From positions 1-42,229 of the forward strand of contig CADEEC010000007.1 of NCBI GenBank assembly GCA_902826255.1: a stretch of 42,229 nt of DNA, read 5' to 3'. This stretch comes from an uncultured Hyphomicrobiales bacterium (lineage in GTDB: Bacteria; Pseudomonadota; Alphaproteobacteria; Rhizobiales; Hyphomicrobiaceae). Of the stretch, positions 196-8,540 are shown piece by piece. The position numbers were made by a program, and so were the translations under genes. The stretch's first letter is position 1. Each line of letters opens with the position of its first letter. The notes under the pieces were generated by a model. That model did not search any database. It had not been told where the DNA came from and saw only the letters and a program-made list of their open reading frames with translations.

Positions 196-2217
196 TTATT
201 CTGCAGCCGGCCGGCGCAGCACCTCGACGTTTGGATTGCTCTCGAGCTGCCTCCGCTCGTTGGCAAGGAAGTGCAGCGGTCCGCCGCGGAAGGGTGCGAA
301 ACCGGTACCGAAGATCACCCCGGCATCGACGAGGTCCGCGCTCCCGACGATGCGCTCGTCGCGTACGCGCTCGCATTCGCGGATGAGCGGGTCGACGAGC
401 TCGCGCCCGAGCCGTTCCAGCTCCGCCTTGTCCCAGGGCGTCTCGGGCTTGGCCTTCTGCGGCTTGCCGTCCTTCCAAGTATAGAAGCCTTCGCCGGATT
501 TCTTGCCGAGCTTGCCGGCGGCGACCATCTGATCGAGCTTCGAGCCGCCCGGAGGCGCAATCTTGAGGACGTTGGCGACGCTGGCGCAAACGTCGAGACC
601 CACCGTGTCCGCGAGTTCCACGGGCCCCATGGGCATGCCGAAGGTGCGCGCGGCCTCGTCGATCTTCTCTTTGGACTCGCCGCGCTCGACGCGCTGCAGG
701 GCGGCCAGCATGTAGGGGCCGAGAACGCGGTTGACGACAAACCCCGGGCTGCTCTTCACGATCAGCGGGAACTTGTCGATGGCCGTGACGAAGGTACAGG
801 CCTTCTGCACCTCTTCCTCGCGGCTACCGGCACCGCGGATCACCTCCACCAGCGGCATCTGCGCAACCGGATTGAAGAAGTGAATGCCGACGAGACGTCC
901 GGGATCGGCCAACGGCTCGGCGATGTCCTCGATCATGATCGAGGAGGTGTTGGTTGCCATGACCGCGCCCGGCTTTAGTTTGCCCTCGAGCGACTTGAAC
1001 AGGCTCTGCTTGACCTCCAGGCGTTCGACGATGGCCTCGATCACCACGTCAGCCCGGTGGATGTTGGCACCGGCCTGGTCCGCGATCAGGCGCGCCAGCG
1101 CGGCGTCACGCAGCGGCTTGGTCTTGAACTTGCGTGCAAACAGCTTCTTCTGCGCCGCAATGCCTTTGGCGATCTGCTCGGCGTTCAGGTCCTGCAGCGA
1201 CACTTCCATACCCGAGGCGACGCACCACCCGGCAATGTCGGCACCCATCACGCCTGCGCCGATGACGTGCACGCGCAACGGCTTGAACGGCAGGTCTTTC
1301 GGCGCCTGCGCCTTGAGCATCTCCATGAGCTTGAAGACGCGGCGCAGGTTGCGGGAGGTCTCGCTGACCATCAGAGGCGCAAACGCGCGCGTCTCGGCGA
1401 GCTTCATGCCGTCGAGGTTGGCCGCGTGTGTCTCGAACAGGTCGATCAGCCGGAACGGGGCCGGATAGTGCTCCTCGCGCGCCTTCTTGGCCGTTTCCGT
1501 GCGCAGCTTGTTGGCAAACAGACCGCGCGCCGGCCACTGGCGCACCAAGTCCTTCCAGAACGCTGTCGGCTTCGATTTGCGCTTGCGTTCGACGGCCGCA
1601 CGGGCAGCCCAGGCCAGCTTGGCGCGGCTCGGCACCAACTCGTCGATGAGCCCCATGCCGCGCGCGGCCGTGGCGCGGATCATCGAGCCCGCAAGCATCA
1701 TCGGCATGGCTGCAAGCGCGCCGGCCTGGCGGATCGAACGCGCCGTACCGTTGAAGCCAGGGAAGATGCCTAGCCTCACCTCGGGGAATCCGACACGCGT
1801 GCCTTCGTCACGCGTCGCGATACGCCAGTGGCAGGCGAGCGCCAGCTCCAGGCCGCCGCCGAGGCAGAAGCCATGGATGGCGCACACGACCGGTACCGGC
1901 ATGCGCTCGATGCGATCGAGGTAAGCGTTGACCAGCGTAACGCTGTCCGCCACCTCGCGCTCGCTCTTGAGCTGCTCGAACTCGCGCACGTCGGCACCGA
2001 CGATGAAGCCCTTCTCCTTGCCGGAGATGAACACAAGGCCGCGGATGGACTTGTCCCTCGCGCCCTGCTCGACACGCTCGACGATGGCGCCAAGCTCCTC
2101 GAGCGCACGCCGCCCAAGCGAGTTCTGGCTTTCGCCCTCGCGGTCGAACACCGCCCACGCAATACCTTGCCGATCGACAGAAAAGCGCCAGTCGCGCAAC
2201 GCGTTCACATCCACCAT
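196..2217 (-). CDS. fadJ: Fatty acid oxidation complex alpha subunit: enoyl-CoA hydratase/3-hydroxyacyl-CoA dehydrogenase
   Basis: The 673-residue bifunctional protein hydrates 2-enoyl-CoA and then oxidises L-3-hydroxyacyl-CoA with NAD+, acting with the thiolase encoded just downstream. The N-terminal crotonase domain (about 1-200) carries the oxyanion-hole stretch HGFCLGGGLELAL, with a likely catalytic Glu near 124 and a second Glu in GFPEVRLG near 146. The dehydrogenase domain starts with the Rossmann motif GAGVMGADIAG near 320-330 and has the catalytic His in GIHFFNPV near 446. A C-terminal 3HCDH domain follows. It is slightly shorter than E. coli FadJ/FadB (over 700 residues). Twelve bases separate it from the upstream fadE stop and 27 from the fadI start, so it is probably co-transcribed. 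The second hydratase motif reads GFPEVRLGIFPG, a variation on the usual LPEVxLGLLPG. Confidence 0.93.
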   Translation of the reverse strand: MVDVNALRDWRFSVDRQGIAWAVFDREGESQNSLGRRALEELGAIVERVEQGARDKSIRGLVFISGKEKGFIVGADVREFEQLKSEREVADSVTLVNAYLDRIERMPVPVVCAIHGFCLGGGLELALACHWRIATRDEGTRVGFPEVRLGIFPGFNGTARSIRQAGALAAMPMMLAGSMIRATAARGMGLIDELVPSRAKLAWAARAAVERKRKSKPTAFWKDLVRQWPARGLFANKLRTETAKKAREEHYPAPFRLIDLFETHAANLDGMKLAETRAFAPLMVSETSRNLRRVFKLMEMLKAQAPKDLPFKPLRVHVIGAGVMGADIAGWCVASGMEVSLQDLNAEQIAKGIAAQKKLFARKFKTKPLRDAALARLIADQAGANIHRADVVIEAIVERLEVKQSLFKSLEGKLKPGAVMATNTSSIMIEDIAEPLADPGRLVGIHFFNPVAQMPLVEVIRGAGSREEEVQKACTFVTAIDKFPLIVKSSPGFVVNRVLGPYMLAALQRVERGESKEKIDEAARTFGMPMGPVELADTVGLDVCASVANVLKIAPPGGSKLDQMVAAGKLGKKSGEGFYTWKDGKPQKAKPETPWDKAELERLGRELVDPLIRECERVRDERIVGSADLVDAGVIFGTGFAPFRGGPLHFLANERRQLESNPNVEVLRRPAAE

Positions 2218-2229
2218 ATCACCGCACCT

Positions 2230-4734
2230 CTACTCAGCCGCACTCCGCATGGCCCGCGCATTGTGGCCGGCCGTCATGTAGTGAGGACGCACCTCCGCCG
2301 GATCGAAGTGATCGACGGCGATCACGCGGGCGGTGAGGTCTTCGACCTCGTGCAACAGCCGCGCCTCCTCCTCGGTAATCGCTCCGACCTTGGCAGCGTC
2401 GGCGATCCAGTCGGTTCCATGCACCCGGCGCACTTGCCCCGAGCGCACGGCGCGATCGAGCTTCTTGTCGGCCACCTCGGCCGCAATCACCTTGGCGAAC
2501 GTGACCTCCAACAGCCCGGTCGGGTCTCTGGCATCCTGCGAAACGTAGACGTACCGCGTCAGGCGATCCCGCACGTCGCCCGGCGTCAGCACCAGTTCCA
2601 CGCACTTGTGGCCCAACCAGTCCGGGGCGGGCTTGTAATGGAGGCCGAACGGATAGACGACGGCGCGCATCAGCCACCGCACAGGCGTGGACGGGAAGTT
2701 GTCTATCGTCCCACGCAGGGCCTCCTGGAAGCGAAAGAGGCCGTTGCGGGCACACAGCTCCACGATCATGCGATCGTTGGCAGGCTTGCCGTCGTCCTCG
2801 TAACGCTTGAGGACGCAAGAGAGCAGGTAGAGCTCGGACAGAGCGTCGGCGAGGCGGCCGGTCAGCTTCTGCTTGGTCTTGAGACCGCCGCCCAATACTG
2901 CCACCGTCAGGTCGGCGACGAAGGCAAAATTGCGCGAGGACCGCCAGAGCTGACGATACCATTCGGCCGTTCCGTAGGCCTGCTCGGGGACATGGCCGAA
3001 GTAACCGAAAGTCAGATTGTGGAACAGAGCACCGAAGGTGTTCGACAGAGCGAACGAGACGTGCGCGCAGAACGCGCGATCGAAGGCGACGAGGCCGCGC
3101 TCTTCATCAACGTCCTGGCAGGCCTGGATCTCCCGATAAAGGTAGGGATGCGAGCGCAAGGCACCTTGCGCGAAGGTGATCAGCGAGCGGGTGAGGATAT
3201 TGGCGCCTTCGACGGTGATCGCCACCGGCATGGCCTGGTAGGCCGACTGCAGATAGTTGGAGGGACCGTCGCAGACCGCCTTGCCGCCATGCAGGTCCAT
3301 GGCGTCGTTGACCGAGCGGCGCATGCGCTCGGTAGTTTGGTACTTCATGATGGCAGAGATCACGGACGGCTTTTCGCCTCTGCTCACCATGGAAGCCGTG
3401 ACCCCGCGCGCGGCCTCGTTGACGTAGGCGTTCTCGATCATGCGCGCGAGCGGCTCCTCGAGACCTTCCATCTTGCCGATGGGGAAATCGAATTGCTTGC
3501 GGATGCGCGCGTACGCGCTCGTGTTGCGCAGCACGGATTTGGCGCCGGCCGCGGACGAAGACGGCAGTGAGATCGAGCGACCTGCGGCCAGACACTCCAT
3601 CAGCATCCGCCAGCCCTGGCCAACCATCTTCTCGCCGCCGATCACCCAGTCCATGGGGATGAACACGTCCGTCCCCCAGATCGGCCCGTTGGGGAAAGCG
3701 GATCCACTGGGAAGATGACGCCGGCCGATCTCGACGCCCGGATGATCCGCCGGAATGAGCGCGACAGTGATGCCGAGATCCTCACCGCGGCCCAGCAAGT
3801 TTTCCTTATCGATGAGCCGCACCGCCAGACCGACGAGCGTGGCATTGGGTGCAAGCGTGATGTAGCGCTTCTCCCAGGACGCGCGAAAGCCGATGACCTC
3901 CTGGCCCTCGTGCCGACCTTTGGTGACGTAGCCTACGTCGCGCATCGTGGCCGCATCCGACCCCGACGTAGGACCGGTAAGACCGAAGCACGGCACCTCG
4001 AGCCCCTGCGCGAGGCGCGGGAGGTAATGCTCCTTCTGCTCATCCGTTCCGTATTTTTCGATCAGCTCGCCGGGGCCGAGCGAATTTGGCACCATGACGA
4101 GCGTGCACACATCCGGCGAACGCGAGGCGATCCGGCCAAGGATGATCGATTGCGCCTGCGGCGAGAAGCCGAGGCCACCATGCTCTTTCGATATGAGCAT
4201 GCCGAGAAAGCCGTTCTTTTTAACGAAGTCCCAAATCTCGGCGGGGATTTCCTTGTTGCTGTGCCGGACGGTCCAATCGTTGACCATGCGGCATAGCTCG
4301 TTAGTGGGACCGTCAAGGAAAGCCTTCTCCTCGGCAGTCAACGTGATCGGCGGCACGGACCTGAGCTTGGTCCAATCGGGCCGCCCCGAAAAAAGCTCCG
4401 CATCGAACCCGATGGTGCCGGCATCCAGCGCGGCCTGCTCCGTTGCCGAAACCTTCGGCAGAATTCCTTTGATCACTTTGAAGATCGGCTGCACGAGCAT
4501 CGCGCGGCGCAGGCCGGGCACGCACAGTGCAAACAGGGCTACCGCCAGCAGCCAGCCAACCGCCCCCAGCAAGCCCGGCCGCACCGGACCGACGTCTCCG
4601 CGCAACAATCCTGTCTGCGAAACCAGCAAGGCGGCCGCCAGCGCTGCAGCCCAGATCCATAGTGGCGCCCTCCGCATCGCGAGAACGAAGACACCGACGA
4701 TGCAAACCAGCAAAAGAACCAGTTCCGCCATCAC
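2230..4734 (-). CDS. fadE: Membrane-associated acyl-CoA dehydrogenase, FadE family
   Basis: This 834-residue flavoenzyme catalyses the first step of beta-oxidation, making trans-2-enoyl-CoA from acyl-CoA. It is close in length to E. coli FadE (814). The first 45 residues or so form two hydrophobic segments, expected to anchor it to the inner membrane. The acyl-CoA dehydrogenase core follows, with recognisable stretches such as CFGLTGPTSGSDAA and the motif MDLHGGKAV in the C-terminal flavin-binding helical region. The last 250 or so residues match the extra C-terminal domain (DUF1974) typical of FadE. The ATG follows a GGGAG sequence and has no good upstream alternative. It heads the fadE-fadJ-fadI operon, behind a long palindrome 65 bases upstream that may be its operator. 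Confidence 0.92.
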   Translation of the reverse strand: MMAELVLLLVCIVGVFVLAMRRAPLWIWAAALAAALLVSQTGLLRGDVGPVRPGLLGAVGWLLAVALFALCVPGLRRAMLVQPIFKVIKGILPKVSATEQAALDAGTIGFDAELFSGRPDWTKLRSVPPITLTAEEKAFLDGPTNELCRMVNDWTVRHSNKEIPAEIWDFVKKNGFLGMLISKEHGGLGFSPQAQSIILGRIASRSPDVCTLVMVPNSLGPGELIEKYGTDEQKEHYLPRLAQGLEVPCFGLTGPTSGSDAATMRDVGYVTKGRHEGQEVIGFRASWEKRYITLAPNATLVGLAVRLIDKENLLGRGEDLGITVALIPADHPGVEIGRRHLPSGSAFPNGPIWGTDVFIPMDWVIGGEKMVGQGWRMLMECLAAGRSISLPSSSAAGAKSVLRNTSAYARIRKQFDFPIGKMEGLEEPLARMIENAYVNEAARGVTASMVSRGEKPSVISAIMKYQTTERMRRSVNDAMDLHGGKAVCDGPSNYLQSAYQAMPVAITVEGANILTRSLITFAQGALRSHPYLYREIQACQDVDEERGLVAFDRAFCAHVSFALSNTFGALFHNLTFGYFGHVPEQAYGTAEWYRQLWRSSRNFAFVADLTVAVLGGGLKTKQKLTGRLADALSELYLLSCVLKRYEDDGKPANDRMIVELCARNGLFRFQEALRGTIDNFPSTPVRWLMRAVVYPFGLHYKPAPDWLGHKCVELVLTPGDVRDRLTRYVYVSQDARDPTGLLEVTFAKVIAAEVADKKLDRAVRSGQVRRVHGTDWIADAAKVGAITEEEARLLHEVEDLTARVIAVDHFDPAEVRPHYMTAGHNARAMRSAAE

Positions 4735-4939: not shown

Positions 4940-5290
4940 ATGGAAGATCGGTGGATTCTGGCTGGGCGCGCTTCCCTCGCCCCTATCTGTCTGCTGCTTG
5001 GCGGCTTTGCTCTCGCCAGTGCCAATGATCCCAGGCAAATCGCCTACGGCAAGCATCTCTCACAGGAATGTACCGGCTGCCACCGCCTCGATGGTGCCGC
5101 AGACGGTATTCCCTCAATTGTCGGCTGGCCCGCAGATACGCTTGCCGCAACGCTGAAGTTCTACCAAACCGGCGCGCGCAGCAACCCTGTCATGGTCTCT
5201 GTCGCGACCTCCCTGGATGAAAAGCAGATCGACGCTCTGGCCGCCTACTTTGCGTCTCTGCCCAAACCGGGTTCCAAGGGGAAGAAGTAG
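4940..5290 (+). CDS. fccA: Monohaem c-type cytochrome, sulfide dehydrogenase cytochrome-like subunit
   Basis: This 116-residue exported cytochrome starts at an ATG giving a short charged N-terminus and a hydrophobic signal segment (about residues 12-27, ending ALASA). One haem-binding motif, CTGCH, lies at residues 44-48, and a Met near 85 (SNPVM) is a plausible sixth haem ligand. The size and the PSIVGWP stretch fit the small cytochrome c553-type subunit of flavocytochrome c sulfide dehydrogenase, which passes electrons from the flavoprotein to the respiratory chain in the periplasm. The partner flavoprotein gene is convergent and immediately downstream, an unusual orientation because fccA and fccB are usually co-directional. 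The frame continues upstream to 4841, but that extension is arginine-rich and unlike a signal peptide. Confidence 0.8.
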   Translation: MEDRWILAGRASLAPICLLLGGFALASANDPRQIAYGKHLSQECTGCHRLDGAADGIPSIVGWPADTLAATLKFYQTGARSNPVMVSVATSLDEKQIDALAAYFASLPKPGSKGKK

Positions 5291-5301
5291 GATAACGACG
5301 A

Positions 5302-5337
5302 CCGGGCGGGGACGGCAGTAGCCCCGTCCCTGCCCGG
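5302..5337. terminator. Hairpin between convergent fccA and fccB
   Basis: A 14-bp stem with a single mismatch pairs 5302-5315 (starting CCGGGCGGGG) with 5324-5337, closing an 8-base loop. It fills most of the 54-bp gap between the two convergent stop codons, so it can end transcription from both sides. Neither side has a proper T-tract, so efficiency is uncertain. Confidence 0.6.
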
Positions 5338-5344
5338 CGCCGGT

Positions 5345-6664
5345 TCAGCCCTTCTTGCCTGCAGCTGCCGGGCGCGTTTTGGCGAACATCTCGTCCGTGA
5401 TGCTGTTGTACCAGGCAATGCTCTCCTGGTAGTTCTGCTTGCGCACATCCGCGGACTCGCCCCTTTGCGAGACGAAAGACCCGGAGGGATCCAGCTTGCT
5501 TCCCTTCGGCGTATAGTTCGCGCCAACCTTCACGTTGTCGTCGGGCGCAAGCAGCGACCAGCAGGTGTTGCGGTAGCGGGGCTCGAACTTGTCCTTCTTT
5601 GCCAGAGCGGCTGCAATATCCGCTGCGACAACCTTGGCCTGGCTGTTTGCAGAAAAAGCCGACTTCGGCATCTCTGCGGCAATGGCCGCGTCGCCCAGTA
5701 CGTAGATATCGGGCACCTTTGGCGACGAGAAGTTTTCCGCGTTCACGGGGCACCAGTCGCCGTCGTTGATACCGGCTTTCGACGCGATCTCGCCGGCCCG
5801 CTGTTGCGGAATGACGTTGGCAACATCGGCGCGTACCCGCTTGCCGGCTTTGGTGACGATCTCTTTCGTCTTCGGATTCACACTTACGACGGAAAAATCG
5901 TCGAGTTCGGTAGAGAGGTTGAGCTCGATGATGTTCTTGTAGTGGCGGTCGAACGCCTCGGTAAAGACAGGCTGCTTGGAGAAGGAGCGCTTGGGGTCGA
6001 GGATCACCAGCTTCGACTTGGGCTTCCGCGCCTTGAGGTAGTGCGCGATCATGCAGGCGCGCTCGTAGGGACCCGGCGGACAGCGAAACGGGTTGTTCGG
6101 CATCACCATTGCCACCGTACCGCCGTCGCGCATGGACTGCAGCTGCTGCTTCAGTAGGCGCTTTTGCGCGGCGTCGGTGTTGTAAGCGTGCGGCATGATG
6201 CGCGCCACGTCGCGCGAGTAGCCTTGAATGGAGTCGTACTTGATGTCGATGCCTGGAGACAGCACCAGCCTGTCGTAAGAATACGTACGACCGCCGCGGG
6301 TCCTGACCGTCTTTGCCTTGGGGTCCACGGCATTGGCATAATCGTGCACAACCCTGATGCCGAGCCGGCGCAGCCCGGCATAGCCGTGGCTCAACGATTC
6401 TAGCGAACGAAAGCCCCCGAGATAGAGATTGGAGAAGAAGGAAGAGCTGTAAGTCGCGTTCGCCTCGATCAGCGTGACATCAAGGTTGGGGGCCGCGGTC
6501 TTCACGAAATGGGCAACCGTCGCGCCGCCCGCGCCACCCCCCACGATCACGACCTTCGCGGCGCCTTGAGCGATCGCAAACGGGACCAGCATGGGGCCAA
6601 CCACGGCGCTCGCGCCGGTGCCCGCTGCAAGCTTTCCGAACGACCTTCTCGACAGCTTGGACAT
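5345..6664 (-). CDS. fccB: Flavocytochrome c sulfide dehydrogenase flavoprotein subunit
   Basis: The 439-residue FAD protein belongs to the FccB/SoxF family, which oxidises sulfide to sulfane sulfur in the periplasm and passes electrons to the cytochrome subunit. The chosen ATG follows a GGAGG site and begins a Tat signal with SRRSFGK at residues 5-11. The Rossmann motif VIVGGGAGGATVAHF spans about 39-53, and a second FAD motif, YVLGDAA, lies at 321-327. Two cysteines, C195 (FRCPPGPYERA) and C368 (NTCWSLL), sit where the redox disulfide of this family occurs. The stretch around residues 71-79 (TYSSSFFSN) has no cysteine where Allochromatium FccB carries its covalent FAD link. The gene is convergent with fccA and divergent from soxYZ. 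Confidence 0.88.
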   Translation of the reverse strand: MSKLSRRSFGKLAAGTGASAVVGPMLVPFAIAQGAAKVVIVGGGAGGATVAHFVKTAAPNLDVTLIEANATYSSSFFSNLYLGGFRSLESLSHGYAGLRRLGIRVVHDYANAVDPKAKTVRTRGGRTYSYDRLVLSPGIDIKYDSIQGYSRDVARIMPHAYNTDAAQKRLLKQQLQSMRDGGTVAMVMPNNPFRCPPGPYERACMIAHYLKARKPKSKLVILDPKRSFSKQPVFTEAFDRHYKNIIELNLSTELDDFSVVSVNPKTKEIVTKAGKRVRADVANVIPQQRAGEIASKAGINDGDWCPVNAENFSSPKVPDIYVLGDAAIAAEMPKSAFSANSQAKVVAADIAAALAKKDKFEPRYRNTCWSLLAPDDNVKVGANYTPKGSKLDPSGSFVSQRGESADVRKQNYQESIAWYNSITDEMFAKTRPAAAGKKG

Positions 6665-6897
6665 CCCTGAACCTCCCAATCTTGTCCGCCAGACGCTTCT
6701 CATCCCACAATGGCCCTGCGACTATTACAGCAACCGCATAGCTGCAGCCAGAATTCATCGCGCACGGTGCCTCGCAACCAATGACGGGATTTTGCATTGA
6801 TTGCGCGTCAGACGTTATGATACCGCGAGCCAAGCTAGAAGATTCGTCTCTACGCACCATCTGTATTAGTACGAGCCAGTCGTTCATGGGCAGCACA

Positions 6898-7368
6898 ATG
6901 GTGGATTTCCGGTCACCGCTTGATCGTCGAACCTTTATTCTGGGAGGCAGCGCGGTTGCGGCGCTGCTGCCATTTTTGAGCCGTGATGCTGCAGCGCAAG
7001 CGGCCGCCCAACCTTGGGAGGATGCGATCAAAAAGATCATCGGCGATAACAAGCCGACCGAGAGCCGCCTGACCTTTGAGCTGCCGGAGATTGCCGAGAA
7101 TGGCAATACGGTACCCTTCACCGTCACCGTCGAAAGCCCGATGTCGGAGCAGGACCACGTGAAGGCAATTCACTTGATATCTACAGGGAACCCCCAGCCT
7201 GGAATCGCGACGTTCCACTTCACGCCGACATCCGGGCGTGCCTCCGCTTCCAGCAGAATGCGGCTCGCGAAGACCCAGGACGTGATCGGCGTGGCCGAGC
7301 TGAGCGACGGCAAGTTCCTGATGGCCAAGCGGTCCGTAAAGGTGACCATTGGCGGATGCGGCGGCTAG
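6898..7368 (+). CDS. soxY: Sulfur carrier subunit SoxY, Tat-exported
   Basis: SoxY carries sulfur intermediates on a cysteine at its flexible C-terminus in the periplasmic Sox pathway. This copy has 156 residues and ends in the diagnostic GGCGG tail, with the carrier cysteine third from the end. The N-terminus contains a Tat motif, DRRTFILGG, and a hydrophobic segment ending in a likely AAAQA signal cleavage region. The start is uncertain: ATG at 6898 gives a compact Tat signal, and ATG at 6886 adds four residues; neither has a clear Shine-Dalgarno. soxZ follows after 18 bases. The 233-bp divergent gap to fccB probably holds promoters for both, though no clear operator was seen. No soxA, soxX, soxB or soxC is nearby. 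Confidence 0.9.
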   Translation: MVDFRSPLDRRTFILGGSAVAALLPFLSRDAAAQAAAQPWEDAIKKIIGDNKPTESRLTFELPEIAENGNTVPFTVTVESPMSEQDHVKAIHLISTGNPQPGIATFHFTPTSGRASASSRMRLAKTQDVIGVAELSDGKFLMAKRSVKVTIGGCGG

Positions 7369-7386
7369 GAAGGCAAGAGAAGACCC

Positions 7387-7704
7387 ATGTCGAGACCGCG
7401 CGTTAGACTTCCCGAGCGAGCCAAGGTCGGCGAGATCATCGAGGTGAAAACCCTCATCTCACATGTCATGGAAATGGGTCAGCGCCGTGAGGGGGACAAG
7501 GCGATACCGCGCTTCATCATCAATACCTTCACCGCAACCTATGCGGGTGCCGAGGTATTCAAGGCTGAATTGCAACCTGGCATTTCAGCCAATCCCTACA
7601 TAGCGTTCTTTATGAAGGTCCCTGGCCCAGGCGAGTTTGAATTCACCTGGATCGACGACAACGACGCACGCGTCGTCGAGAAGCAGAAGCTCAACGTGGC
7701 CTGA
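7387..7704 (+). CDS. soxZ: Sulfur carrier partner SoxZ
   Basis: This 105-residue protein matches SoxZ in length and in its opening (PRVRLPERAKVGEIIEVKTL), a beta-sandwich fold that forms a heterodimer with SoxY. SoxZ has no signal peptide and is normally exported together with Tat-targeted SoxY; none is visible here either. It follows soxY by 18 bases with a purine-rich GGAAGG-type leader, so the two are co-transcribed. The sequence HVMEMGQRR near the middle is typical of the family. Because the full Sox complex is absent from this window, SoxYZ here may act as a carrier for sulfur released by the neighbouring sulfide dehydrogenase; that role is inferred from context. Confidence 0.93.
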   Translation: MSRPRVRLPERAKVGEIIEVKTLISHVMEMGQRREGDKAIPRFIINTFTATYAGAEVFKAELQPGISANPYIAFFMKVPGPGEFEFTWIDDNDARVVEKQKLNVA

Positions 7705-7783
7705 GATGCTCCGTGGCCGACTTGAGGCCTCCGGCGGCTGGCGATAATCTGCTTCGCGTGAAGTACTTGGGGAGAGTGAGCAG

Positions 7784-8029
7784 GTGTCGGACGACGAGGC
7801 CGTGTGCGCCCAGAAGGGTCCCTATCAGATCGCGCTTGAAGCTGGGCGTGCGTACTTTTGGTGCACCTGCGGACGCTCCGCGCGACAGCCCCTATGTGAC
7901 GGATCACACAAGAGCACGTCGTTCGAGCCGCACCGCTTCGTGGTAGAGCAATCAGGTACGTTCAATTTGTGCGGCTGCAAGAGCACGGACGATCGCCCGT
8001 TCTGCGACGGCACCCACAATATGCTCTGA
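7784..8029 (+). CDS. CDGSH-type iron-sulfur protein with two motifs
   Basis: The 81-residue protein has two CDGSH signatures: C27-x-C29...C38-DG-SH42 and C63-x-C65...C74-DG-TH78. Each 3Cys-1His set is known to bind one redox-active [2Fe-2S] cluster, so two clusters are expected in one small soluble protein. It starts at GTG, placed by a GGGAGAG sequence a short distance upstream; no ATG fits better. It lies 79 bases after soxZ on the same strand and ends 10 bases before the convergent TIGR01244 gene, so it is likely part of the sulfur gene group. Its precise role is unknown; electron transfer or cluster handling linked to sulfur oxidation is an inference. Confidence 0.85.
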   Translation: MSDDEAVCAQKGPYQIALEAGRAYFWCTCGRSARQPLCDGSHKSTSFEPHRFVVEQSGTFNLCGCKSTDDRPFCDGTHNML

Positions 8030-8039
8030 CGATCGCGAG

Positions 8040-8540
8040 CTAGGCCGCCTCCGGCTGATCGGGTGCACAGTCACAGTCGAGAGTCGGCGGAAGTCGATCG
8101 CCTCTGAACGGTTTGTCCCGCTGCTCATCCAGCTCCTCGCGCATCGCCGAGAAGTCAAAACCGGCCTTTTTGAGAGTGTCCAGAACGCAGCCCGATGGCT
8201 GACGCCGCGCGGCTGCGGCAGCCCATGCCAGGGCGGTCCGCAAACCGGAAGCGCAATGCCCGAGAACAGGCCCCTCCAACTCGTTGAGGGCCTGGATCAT
8301 CCCACCCACGACACGCTCGCTGAAGACGTCATGCTTTGTTGCGGGAATGTGGCGGAAACCCAATCCGGCGTCGGCGGCAAGCCGCGCCTCTTCAGCGCTT
8401 AGAAGCGGCGCGCCGGCCTCGCCATCCGGCAGGTTGGAGACGATCGCCCTGAAGCCAGCGGCGGCAGCCGCCCGGATATCTTCGGGTCCCAACGCACCGG
8501 TAACGGCAAATTTGGGCGTGATCTGCTTGATTTTGTTCAT
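8040..8540 (-). CDS. TIGR01244/DUF442 family sulfur-transferase or phosphatase-like protein
   Basis: This 166-residue protein has the fold family of the DUF442 (Blh N-terminal) domain, related to dual-specificity phosphatases and often found with persulfide dioxygenases in alphaproteobacteria. The P-loop-like signature HCASGLRT places the nucleophilic cysteine at residue 96. The family usually starts with a short segment like KITPKFAVTGAL, as here. A GGAAGG site lies just before the ATG; a longer frame up to 8630 is less likely. The C-terminus ends with an acidic, cysteine-containing tail (LDCDCAP), a CxC pair that could bind metal or accept sulfur. It is convergent with the CDGSH gene, in keeping with a role in sulfane sulfur handling, but the substrate cannot be read from the sequence. 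Confidence 0.8.
   Translation of the reverse strand: MNKIKQITPKFAVTGALGPEDIRAAAAAGFRAIVSNLPDGEAGAPLLSAEEARLAADAGLGFRHIPATKHDVFSERVVGGMIQALNELEGPVLGHCASGLRTALAWAAAAARRQPSGCVLDTLKKAGFDFSAMREELDEQRDKPFRGDRLPPTLDCDCAPDQPEAA

Follow-up and report, generated by a model that had tools for sequence, protein, structure and literature searches.

A recurrent FccB-SoxYZ gene pair in Hyphomicrobiaceae suggests a possible sulfide-linked carrier role for SoxYZ apart from SoxA and SoxB

The window, a stretch of 42,229 nucleotides from an uncultured Hyphomicrobiales bacterium, contains six genes that the original prediction had read as encoding a c-type cytochrome, FccB, SoxY, SoxZ, a CDGSH protein with two clusters and a TIGR01244 protein. 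These assignments were borne out at the positions listed in Table 1, with family matches far above chance, and all of the genes are intact open frames in which the catalytic residues and the GGCGG arm are present. Their orientations are not those of a single operon: fccB and soxYZ point away from each other, the cytochrome gene and fccB run towards each other, and so do the genes for TIGR01244 and the CDGSH protein. We searched the region between fccB and soxY for an inverted repeat and found none.

Table 1. Genes and features at the window's sulfur locus and its conserved flank.
Feature	Position	Strand	Evidence
c-type cytochrome, monoheme, FccA-like	4940..5290	+	Cytochrom_C 7.3e-06; one CTGCH motif (CxxCH)
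FccB	5345..6703	-	FCSD_central 1.4e-48, FCSD-flav_bind 1.6e-17; 1fcd_A E 7.9e-107
fccB/soxY intergenic region, divergent	6704..6885	.	
SoxY sulfur carrier	6886..7368	+	TIGR04488 146.7 bits; solved SoxY 2ox5 E 4.1e-25
GGCGG swinging arm at the SoxY C-terminus, bearing the sulfur-binding Cys	7351..7365	+	sequence; tail survey
SoxZ	7387..7704	+	TIGR04490 86.7 bits
CDGSH protein, two CxC...CDGSH/CDGTH clusters	7784..8029	+	zf-CDGSH 3.9e-16, two stretches; motifs
TIGR01244 / BLH_phosphatase, sulfurtransferase-like	8040..8540	-	PF04273 8.1e-18; HCxxGxR loop, here HCASGLR
fadE, acyl-CoA dehydrogenase (module's conserved flank)	2230..4734	-	
fadJ (module's conserved flank)	196..2217	-	

FccB has a probable start at 6664 and a twin-arginine-like signal (SRRSF), and the FCSD domains span its full length. 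Equivalents of the redox-active Cys161 and Cys337 are present at ORF residues 208 and 381, and the position of the covalent-FAD Cys42 is occupied by Ser (ORF residue 88), a substitution also found in most of the window's SoxAXB-bearing relatives. Judged from these residues, the window FccB would be a homologue working like FCSD rather than a canonical covalent-flavin FCSD. The closest flavocytochrome partner of the cytochrome in the PDB is 5n1t_B (E 2.3e-09), and a cytochrome c gene adjoins fccB in the genomes of g1, g2 and part of g9; we consider the monoheme cytochrome a putative partner subunit of FccB. Both SoxY, with a start codon at 6886 or 6898, and SoxZ score above the curated cut-offs for the "true GGCGG" SoxY (TIGR04488, 125 bits) and for SoxZ (TIGR04490, 76 bits), and the carrier has both the GGCGG arm and a SoxZ partner. 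A scan of genome contigs with SoxY returned three loci only.

The remaining two genes do not belong to a fixed set. The six genes had been proposed as a co-occurring unit, of which the FccB-SoxYZ core does recur; the CDGSH gene, a near-universal single-copy gene in the family, flanks soxZ in about 29 loci, and TIGR01244 joins the others only in the window's genus, a distribution that rules out both as fixed parts of the module. The TIGR01244 protein itself scores 81.8 bits against its model, slightly below the cut-off of 85.85. By eye, neither protein has an export signal, whereas SoxYZ is periplasmic, so that the two could not take up sulfur directly from the carrier, as had been suggested; such a transfer would call for a transporter, for instance SoxT. 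In several relatives, branched-chain amino-acid ABC transporter genes follow the CDGSH gene; these were examined and judged unrelated.

The prediction that no other Sox genes accompany soxYZ is true of the window and its contig, on which no match to soxA, soxB or a true soxC was found, and untrue of the genome (G000), a MAG that is 86.8% complete in 340 contigs. Another contig (C51) carries soxA and soxX, both over cut-offs, within the conserved order tkt-pgk-soxA-soxX-(soxB)-ccdA, from which soxB alone is missing; its syntenic place holds 392 bp of dispersed multi-copy repeats. No SoxC over the cut-off was found in this genome, and its sole GCV_H match adjoins gcvT, with no LbpA found beside the glycine-cleavage H protein in this incomplete assembly. 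The genome search also recovered a persulfide dioxygenase (C82) and a SoxT-type PF04143 protein (C192). Four genomes of the same genus (G001, G003, G005 and G006) have SoxB, and the window's genome very likely descends from a lineage with soxB beside soxAX.

The lack of soxB could reflect an assembly error at a repeat, or the gene could lie within the missing 13% of the genome; the organism would then have an ordinary truncated Sox system. The incomplete and fragmented assembly, the multi-copy repeats in the gap and the SoxB of the same-genus genomes are all consistent with this. The contig, however, continues without a break across the soxB site to ccdA and thiD, the neighbouring genes are those expected, and neither a soxB candidate nor a fragment was found on any contig of the MAG; we consider this explanation possible but somewhat unlikely.

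Across the family, fccB lies less than 3 kb from soxY with no soxA or soxB nearby in 67 of 103 genomes, and the order fadJ-fadE-(cyt c)-fccB-(soxS)<>soxYZ-(CDGSH) is conserved across many genera. The module is also syntenic beside fadJ-fadE in further families of the order, and it often includes soxS. Several genera have soxS inside the module, and SoxYZ is the published target of the soxS product (PMC10451225). The module occurs without both SoxA and SoxB in 44 genomes, 37 of which are at least 90% complete, and in such SoxA/B-free genomes soxY, soxZ and fccB are under purifying selection (dN/dS of 0.04-0.30 in the pairs tested). The sulfur module that had been proposed is upheld in its FccB-SoxYZ core, which is recurrent and syntenic, and SoxA/B-free in these 44 relatives; the window's own genome, in contrast, has soxAX, and across relatives the six genes form no unit. 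Our search of openly accessible papers turned up no account of FccB and SoxYZ as a module lacking SoxAXB.

A further explanation is that the module merely supplies SoxYZ to a truncated Sox system for thiosulfate oxidation whose genes are dispersed, with SoxAX-SoxB-CcdA encoded elsewhere and FccB a SoxF-like accessory that (re)activates SoxYZ. Consistent with this are the soxAX of the window's genome and 21 soxAB loci in the family that have no soxY nearby. In five genomes (G026, G027, G077, G078 and G102) the module SoxY is the only SoxY, soxAXB lies elsewhere and the GGCGG end is retained; in such relatives the module SoxYZ must serve the distant SoxAXB. The SoxF flavoprotein, moreover, stimulates thiosulfate oxidation of Chlorobaculum tepidum in vitro, according to a title cited in PMC5336275. 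This explanation nevertheless leaves the 44 SoxA/B-free fccB-soxYZ genomes and their purifying selection unaccounted for, and we regard it as unlikely.

The end of the SoxY arm differs between the two kinds of genome. SoxB-bearing genomes keep GGCGG, apart from those with a separate sox operon and from an unrelated SoxY in G075. All 44 SoxA/B-free module genomes keep GGC, and the GGCGG end is altered in 43 and kept in one; these counts are not independent events, because the main change is largely that of one clade. The tail is likewise altered (GGCGAA) in G148, which belongs to another family and has no SoxB. In the SoxA/B-free module genomes the SoxY Cys has been kept and the arm tail released. 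In the SoxY tree, a branch with support of 96/89 separates module SoxYs from 18 sox-locus SoxYs; this split is weaker in a larger tree of 105 rows. Another explanation is that in the window's genome the locus is a decaying relic, with soxB deleted and a carrier left without a complete pathway. This agrees with the repeats at the soxB site, with the lack of any soxB candidate in the genome, and with G004, whose SoxY is the closest to that of the window and has lost the Cys (GGFSG), and in which no SoxB was detected. The intact frames, catalytic residues and arm of the window and a G005 fccB 82% identical to its own count against it, and we consider it very doubtful.

We propose, with a probability of roughly one half, that the window locus represents a sulfide module, FccAB-SoxYZ, that is ancestral and syntenic in this order; its carrier would be shared with SoxAXB in genomes that have it and would work without it in the others. 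FccB and the c-type cytochrome would oxidise sulfide in the periplasm, and SoxYZ would act as the periplasmic carrier of the resulting sulfane sulfur. In genomes with soxAXB at another site, such as the five above whose only SoxY is the module copy, this SoxYZ would also carry thiosulfate for a truncated Sox system. A large lineage would have lost SoxAXB, with the FccB-SoxYZ pair persisting alone, and in the window's genome soxAX was retained and soxB apparently deleted. Sulfur may then enter the cytoplasm through a SoxT-like transporter, to be processed there by TIGR01244 and persulfide dioxygenase. This reading draws on gene identities, conservation, synteny, distribution, selection and the SoxY arm; loading of SoxY by FccB is the step that we infer. 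In vitro, SoxY(S)n species formed from sulfide can function as carrier states (PMC5336275), but the reported FCSD product is soluble polysulfide (PMC9774590), which would require no protein acceptor and therefore counts against SoxY as acceptor. Further points against the module model are that the adjacent fccB and soxY genes are divergent and not co-transcribed, that the covalent-FAD Cys is missing from the window FccB, and that no full-length SoxT is present in several of the SoxA/B-free genomes.

Somewhat more tentatively, SoxYZ may serve FccAB as its dedicated acceptor of sulfane in the periplasm, without any need for SoxAX, SoxB or SoxCD, along a sulfide-oxidation route kept by many SoxA/B-free bacteria in which the arm end has been freed from its fit to SoxA and SoxB. 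An ancient cluster that stays intact in many bacteria after loss of the enzymes regarded as necessary for using its carrier suggests a second, undescribed carrier job with sulfide. The FccB-SoxYZ pair is a possible answer to where flavocytochrome c sulfur goes, and the altered tail may be a sequence marker distinguishing carriers that serve Sox from those working without SoxB. Closed genomes without soxA and soxB would make this role directly testable by gene deletion. SoxYZ is treated as belonging to the Sox pathway of thiosulfate oxidation, and the presence of soxYZ is often taken as Sox potential; given a widespread, selected FccB-SoxYZ pair without SoxA and SoxB, soxYZ alone is no indicator of thiosulfate oxidation.

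The locus resembles known systems in part. Like FccAB of Allochromatium vinosum (1fcd) and Thioalkalivibrio paradoxus (5n1t), it has full-length FccB domains, the Cys161/Cys337 pair and an adjacent c-type cytochrome gene, but Cys42 is Ser, the cytochrome is monoheme and convergent, and fccB is paired with soxYZ. With the truncated Sox system of Hyphomicrobium denitrificans (SoxAX, SoxB and SoxYZ without SoxCD) it shares a true SoxYZ with the GGCGG arm and, in the genome, soxAX and a SoxT-type transporter; here, in contrast, SoxB was not found, soxYZ lies beside fccB rather than soxAX/soxB, and no LbpA/sHdr was seen. SoxF or SoxJ is the FccB-like flavoprotein of full sox operons (Paracoccus, Chlorobaculum), functionally linked to SoxYZ; the window likewise ties an FccB-like flavoprotein to SoxYZ, although its pair stands alone and its SoxY is of a different lineage. 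Finally, TIGR04487 (SoxY_para_1, with an AACIE arm) and TIGR04557 (quinoprotein-associated SoxYZ-like) are SoxY relatives named apart from the true thiosulfate carrier, and the window SoxY falls below the cut-offs of both and above that of true SoxY.

Family scores confirmed that the six genes of the original prediction (cytochrome c, FccB, SoxY, SoxZ, CDGSH and TIGR01244) are all present at the locus. By eye, FccB (SRRSF) and SoxY (DRRTF) carry twin-arginine-like leaders and the cytochrome a hydrophobic one, and no leader was found on the CDGSH and TIGR01244 proteins; SoxY ends in GGCGG. Across 103 genomes of the family, we counted a module wherever soxY and fccB were no more than 3 kb apart and neither soxA nor soxB was closer than 5 kb, which returned 69 SoxY genes in 67 genomes. 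The gene order is fadJ-fadE-(cytochrome c)-fccB, with soxY-soxZ running divergently from fccB and, in many genera, CDGSH following soxZ; genera g2, g7, g11, g14 and g25 have a small thioredoxin-fold gene between fccB and soxY, its sole strong PDB match being 3d4t/3dml, which we take to be SoxS of Paracoccus pantotrophus. SoxYZ is the target on which SoxS acts (PMC10451225). The arrangement recurs beyond the family, elsewhere in the order (G147, G126, G253), and is therefore probably ancestral. In many genera and in several families the module is flanked by the fadJ-fadE pair, and fadE still adjoins soxYZ where fccB is absent (G028-G030, G265). The two remaining genes, predicted to belong to the module, fall outside it: CDGSH occurs in nearly every genome of the family (93 of 103) and adjoins the module in about 29 loci, and adjacency of TIGR01244 is limited to the window, G005 and the neighbourhood of the second module of G003 (both of the same genus), where a PF04143 gene follows it. 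Direct adjacency of TIGR01244 to a full-length PF04143 (SoxT-type) transporter gene, seen at two loci, hints at a transporter-sulfurtransferase pair.

Coordinates of the module and related loci (G, genome; G000, that of the window; C, contig; L, extracted locus)
Feature	Location	Strand
fadJ-fadE	window 196-4734	
Cytochrome c gene	window 4940-5290	+
fccB	window 5345-6703	-
soxY	window 6886-7368	+
soxZ	window 7387-7704	+
CDGSH gene	window 7784-8029	+
TIGR01244 gene	window 8040-8540	-
Repeat-filled gap	G000:C51:19821-20212 (L060:5822-6213)	
Second fccB	G000:C61:12899-14236 (L047:7900-9237)	
TIGR01244 beside PF04143	G040:C1:706140-707604; G003:C20:102921-104465	
SoxC-like with SoxY-like	G048:C2:172359-174443; G051:C1:451651-453800; G055:C136:3945-6070; G061:C71:114-2190	
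soxYZ with AACID/GACLE-type arms	L054, L092, L096, L097, L099, L100	
SoxY ending GGFSG	L009 / L195 (G004:C353)	

The further prediction that no other Sox genes accompany the module proved wrong for the genome, as soxA (231.8 bits; cut-off 110) and soxX (80.5 bits; cut-off 61) lie on contig C51, the window itself being contig C7. A search of the whole assembly (4.02 Mb, 340 contigs, 86.8% complete) found this partial set and no complete sox operon, with a single SoxY, no SoxB candidate and nothing above the SoxC cut-off. In G005, G001 and G026 the order is soxA, soxX, a gap containing soxB, and ccdA, with tkt-pgk upstream in G005 and G001; G005 and G026 have thiD on the downstream side. After soxX, the window's genome has 392 bp consisting of a dispersed repeat, with several further copies on the same contig, and then ccdA and thiD; the repeat occupies the exact place of soxB, whose absence at precisely that site reflects either a deletion or a repeat-induced misassembly. 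Contig C82 encodes a persulfide dioxygenase, which scores 521.7 bits against the Blh model over its dioxygenase part only, and C192 carries a gene for a full-length PF04143 protein of the SoxT/YeeE type; the genome's sole GCV_H protein adjoins gcvT. A second fccB on C61, 58% identical to that of the window, has no soxYZ; a 395-aa gene without Pfam match precedes it and a periplasmic-binding-protein-like/OmpA fusion gene follows.

Within the family the module occurs both with and without SoxA and SoxB. There are 21 soxAB loci with no soxY nearby, and G026, G027, G077, G078 and G102 have no detected SoxY other than the module copy, so SoxAXB there must use it. Neither SoxA nor SoxB was found in 44 module genomes, among them the single-contig G041, G044, G060 and G062; completeness is 90% or higher in 37, and lists compared by hand gave no SoxC above cut-off in 20 of these. 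At four loci of genomes lacking soxA and soxB, a protein exceeding the SoxC cut-off adjoins a distant SoxY-like gene, probably a fused SoxYZ. A second cluster type has soxY-soxZ with AACID/GACLE-type arms beside soxA, in some cases with fccB too, and looks like the TIGR04487 'AACIE arm' SoxY group.

Pairwise Nei-Gojobori dN/dS, computed with our own script for 12 pairs of SoxA/B-free genomes, was 0.04-0.20 for soxY, 0.04-0.30 for soxZ and 0.04-0.23 for fccB. The SoxY GGC is retained in 44/44 SoxA/B-free module genomes; the GGCGG end occurs in one alone (G002, 76% complete), alongside 18 other endings (GI, GNE, GD, QT, SS, EI and more). Where SoxB is present, SoxYs outside sox loci end in GGCGG in 31 cases and differently in 6; five of these exceptions come from genomes that also have a distinct sox operon (G040, G043, G052, G063, G069), with GGCGG ending its SoxY in 4/4 examined, and the sixth, in G075, is an unrelated SoxY. 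In G148, from another family and without SoxB, the end is GGCGAA. The natural reading is that the arm end is constrained because it has to fit into SoxA and SoxB, and that loss of both leaves the Cys still in use. The pattern is strong, but since most altered tails belong to a single clade and few arose apart from it, the independent events are few. The SoxY nearest the window's in the tree, from G004 (83% complete, SoxB not found), ends in GGFSG, its sulfur-binding Cys lost and its frame intact. Every FccB examined keeps the redox-active pair (Cys161/Cys337 in A. vinosum). In the window FccB, Ser takes the place of the covalent-FAD Cys42, as it does in 10/12 examined FccBs of the group bearing SoxAXB or remains thereof; the position is Cys in 20/20 examined SoxA/B-free FccBs and in the other FccB that the window's genome encodes.

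We propose that FccAB would oxidise sulfide, passing electrons to cytochrome c, and that the sulfane sulfur would go onto the SoxY Cys, because suitable adducts treated with sulfide yield SoxY(S)n states, which function as carrier states in vitro (PMC5336275). Where SoxAXB exist, persulfurated SoxYZ would also be the active form for thiosulfate, so that FccB may prime the carrier. A SoxT-type transporter could bring sulfur into the cytoplasm, as in the import described for SoxT1A of H. denitrificans (PMC12423496). Acceptors there might include TIGR01244 and persulfide dioxygenase.

The separate parts of the module are known, and an FccB-like protein, SoxF, acts together with Sox. In the open-access literature we found no account of FccB and SoxYZ working as a conserved pair where SoxA and SoxB are absent; a survey published in 2024 on the diversity of SoxY covers divergent arms, and the portions of it consulted do not treat the FccB-module variant (PMC11237559). 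The enzymes are thus known ones, yet their combination and distribution are not explained by the standard Sox scheme.
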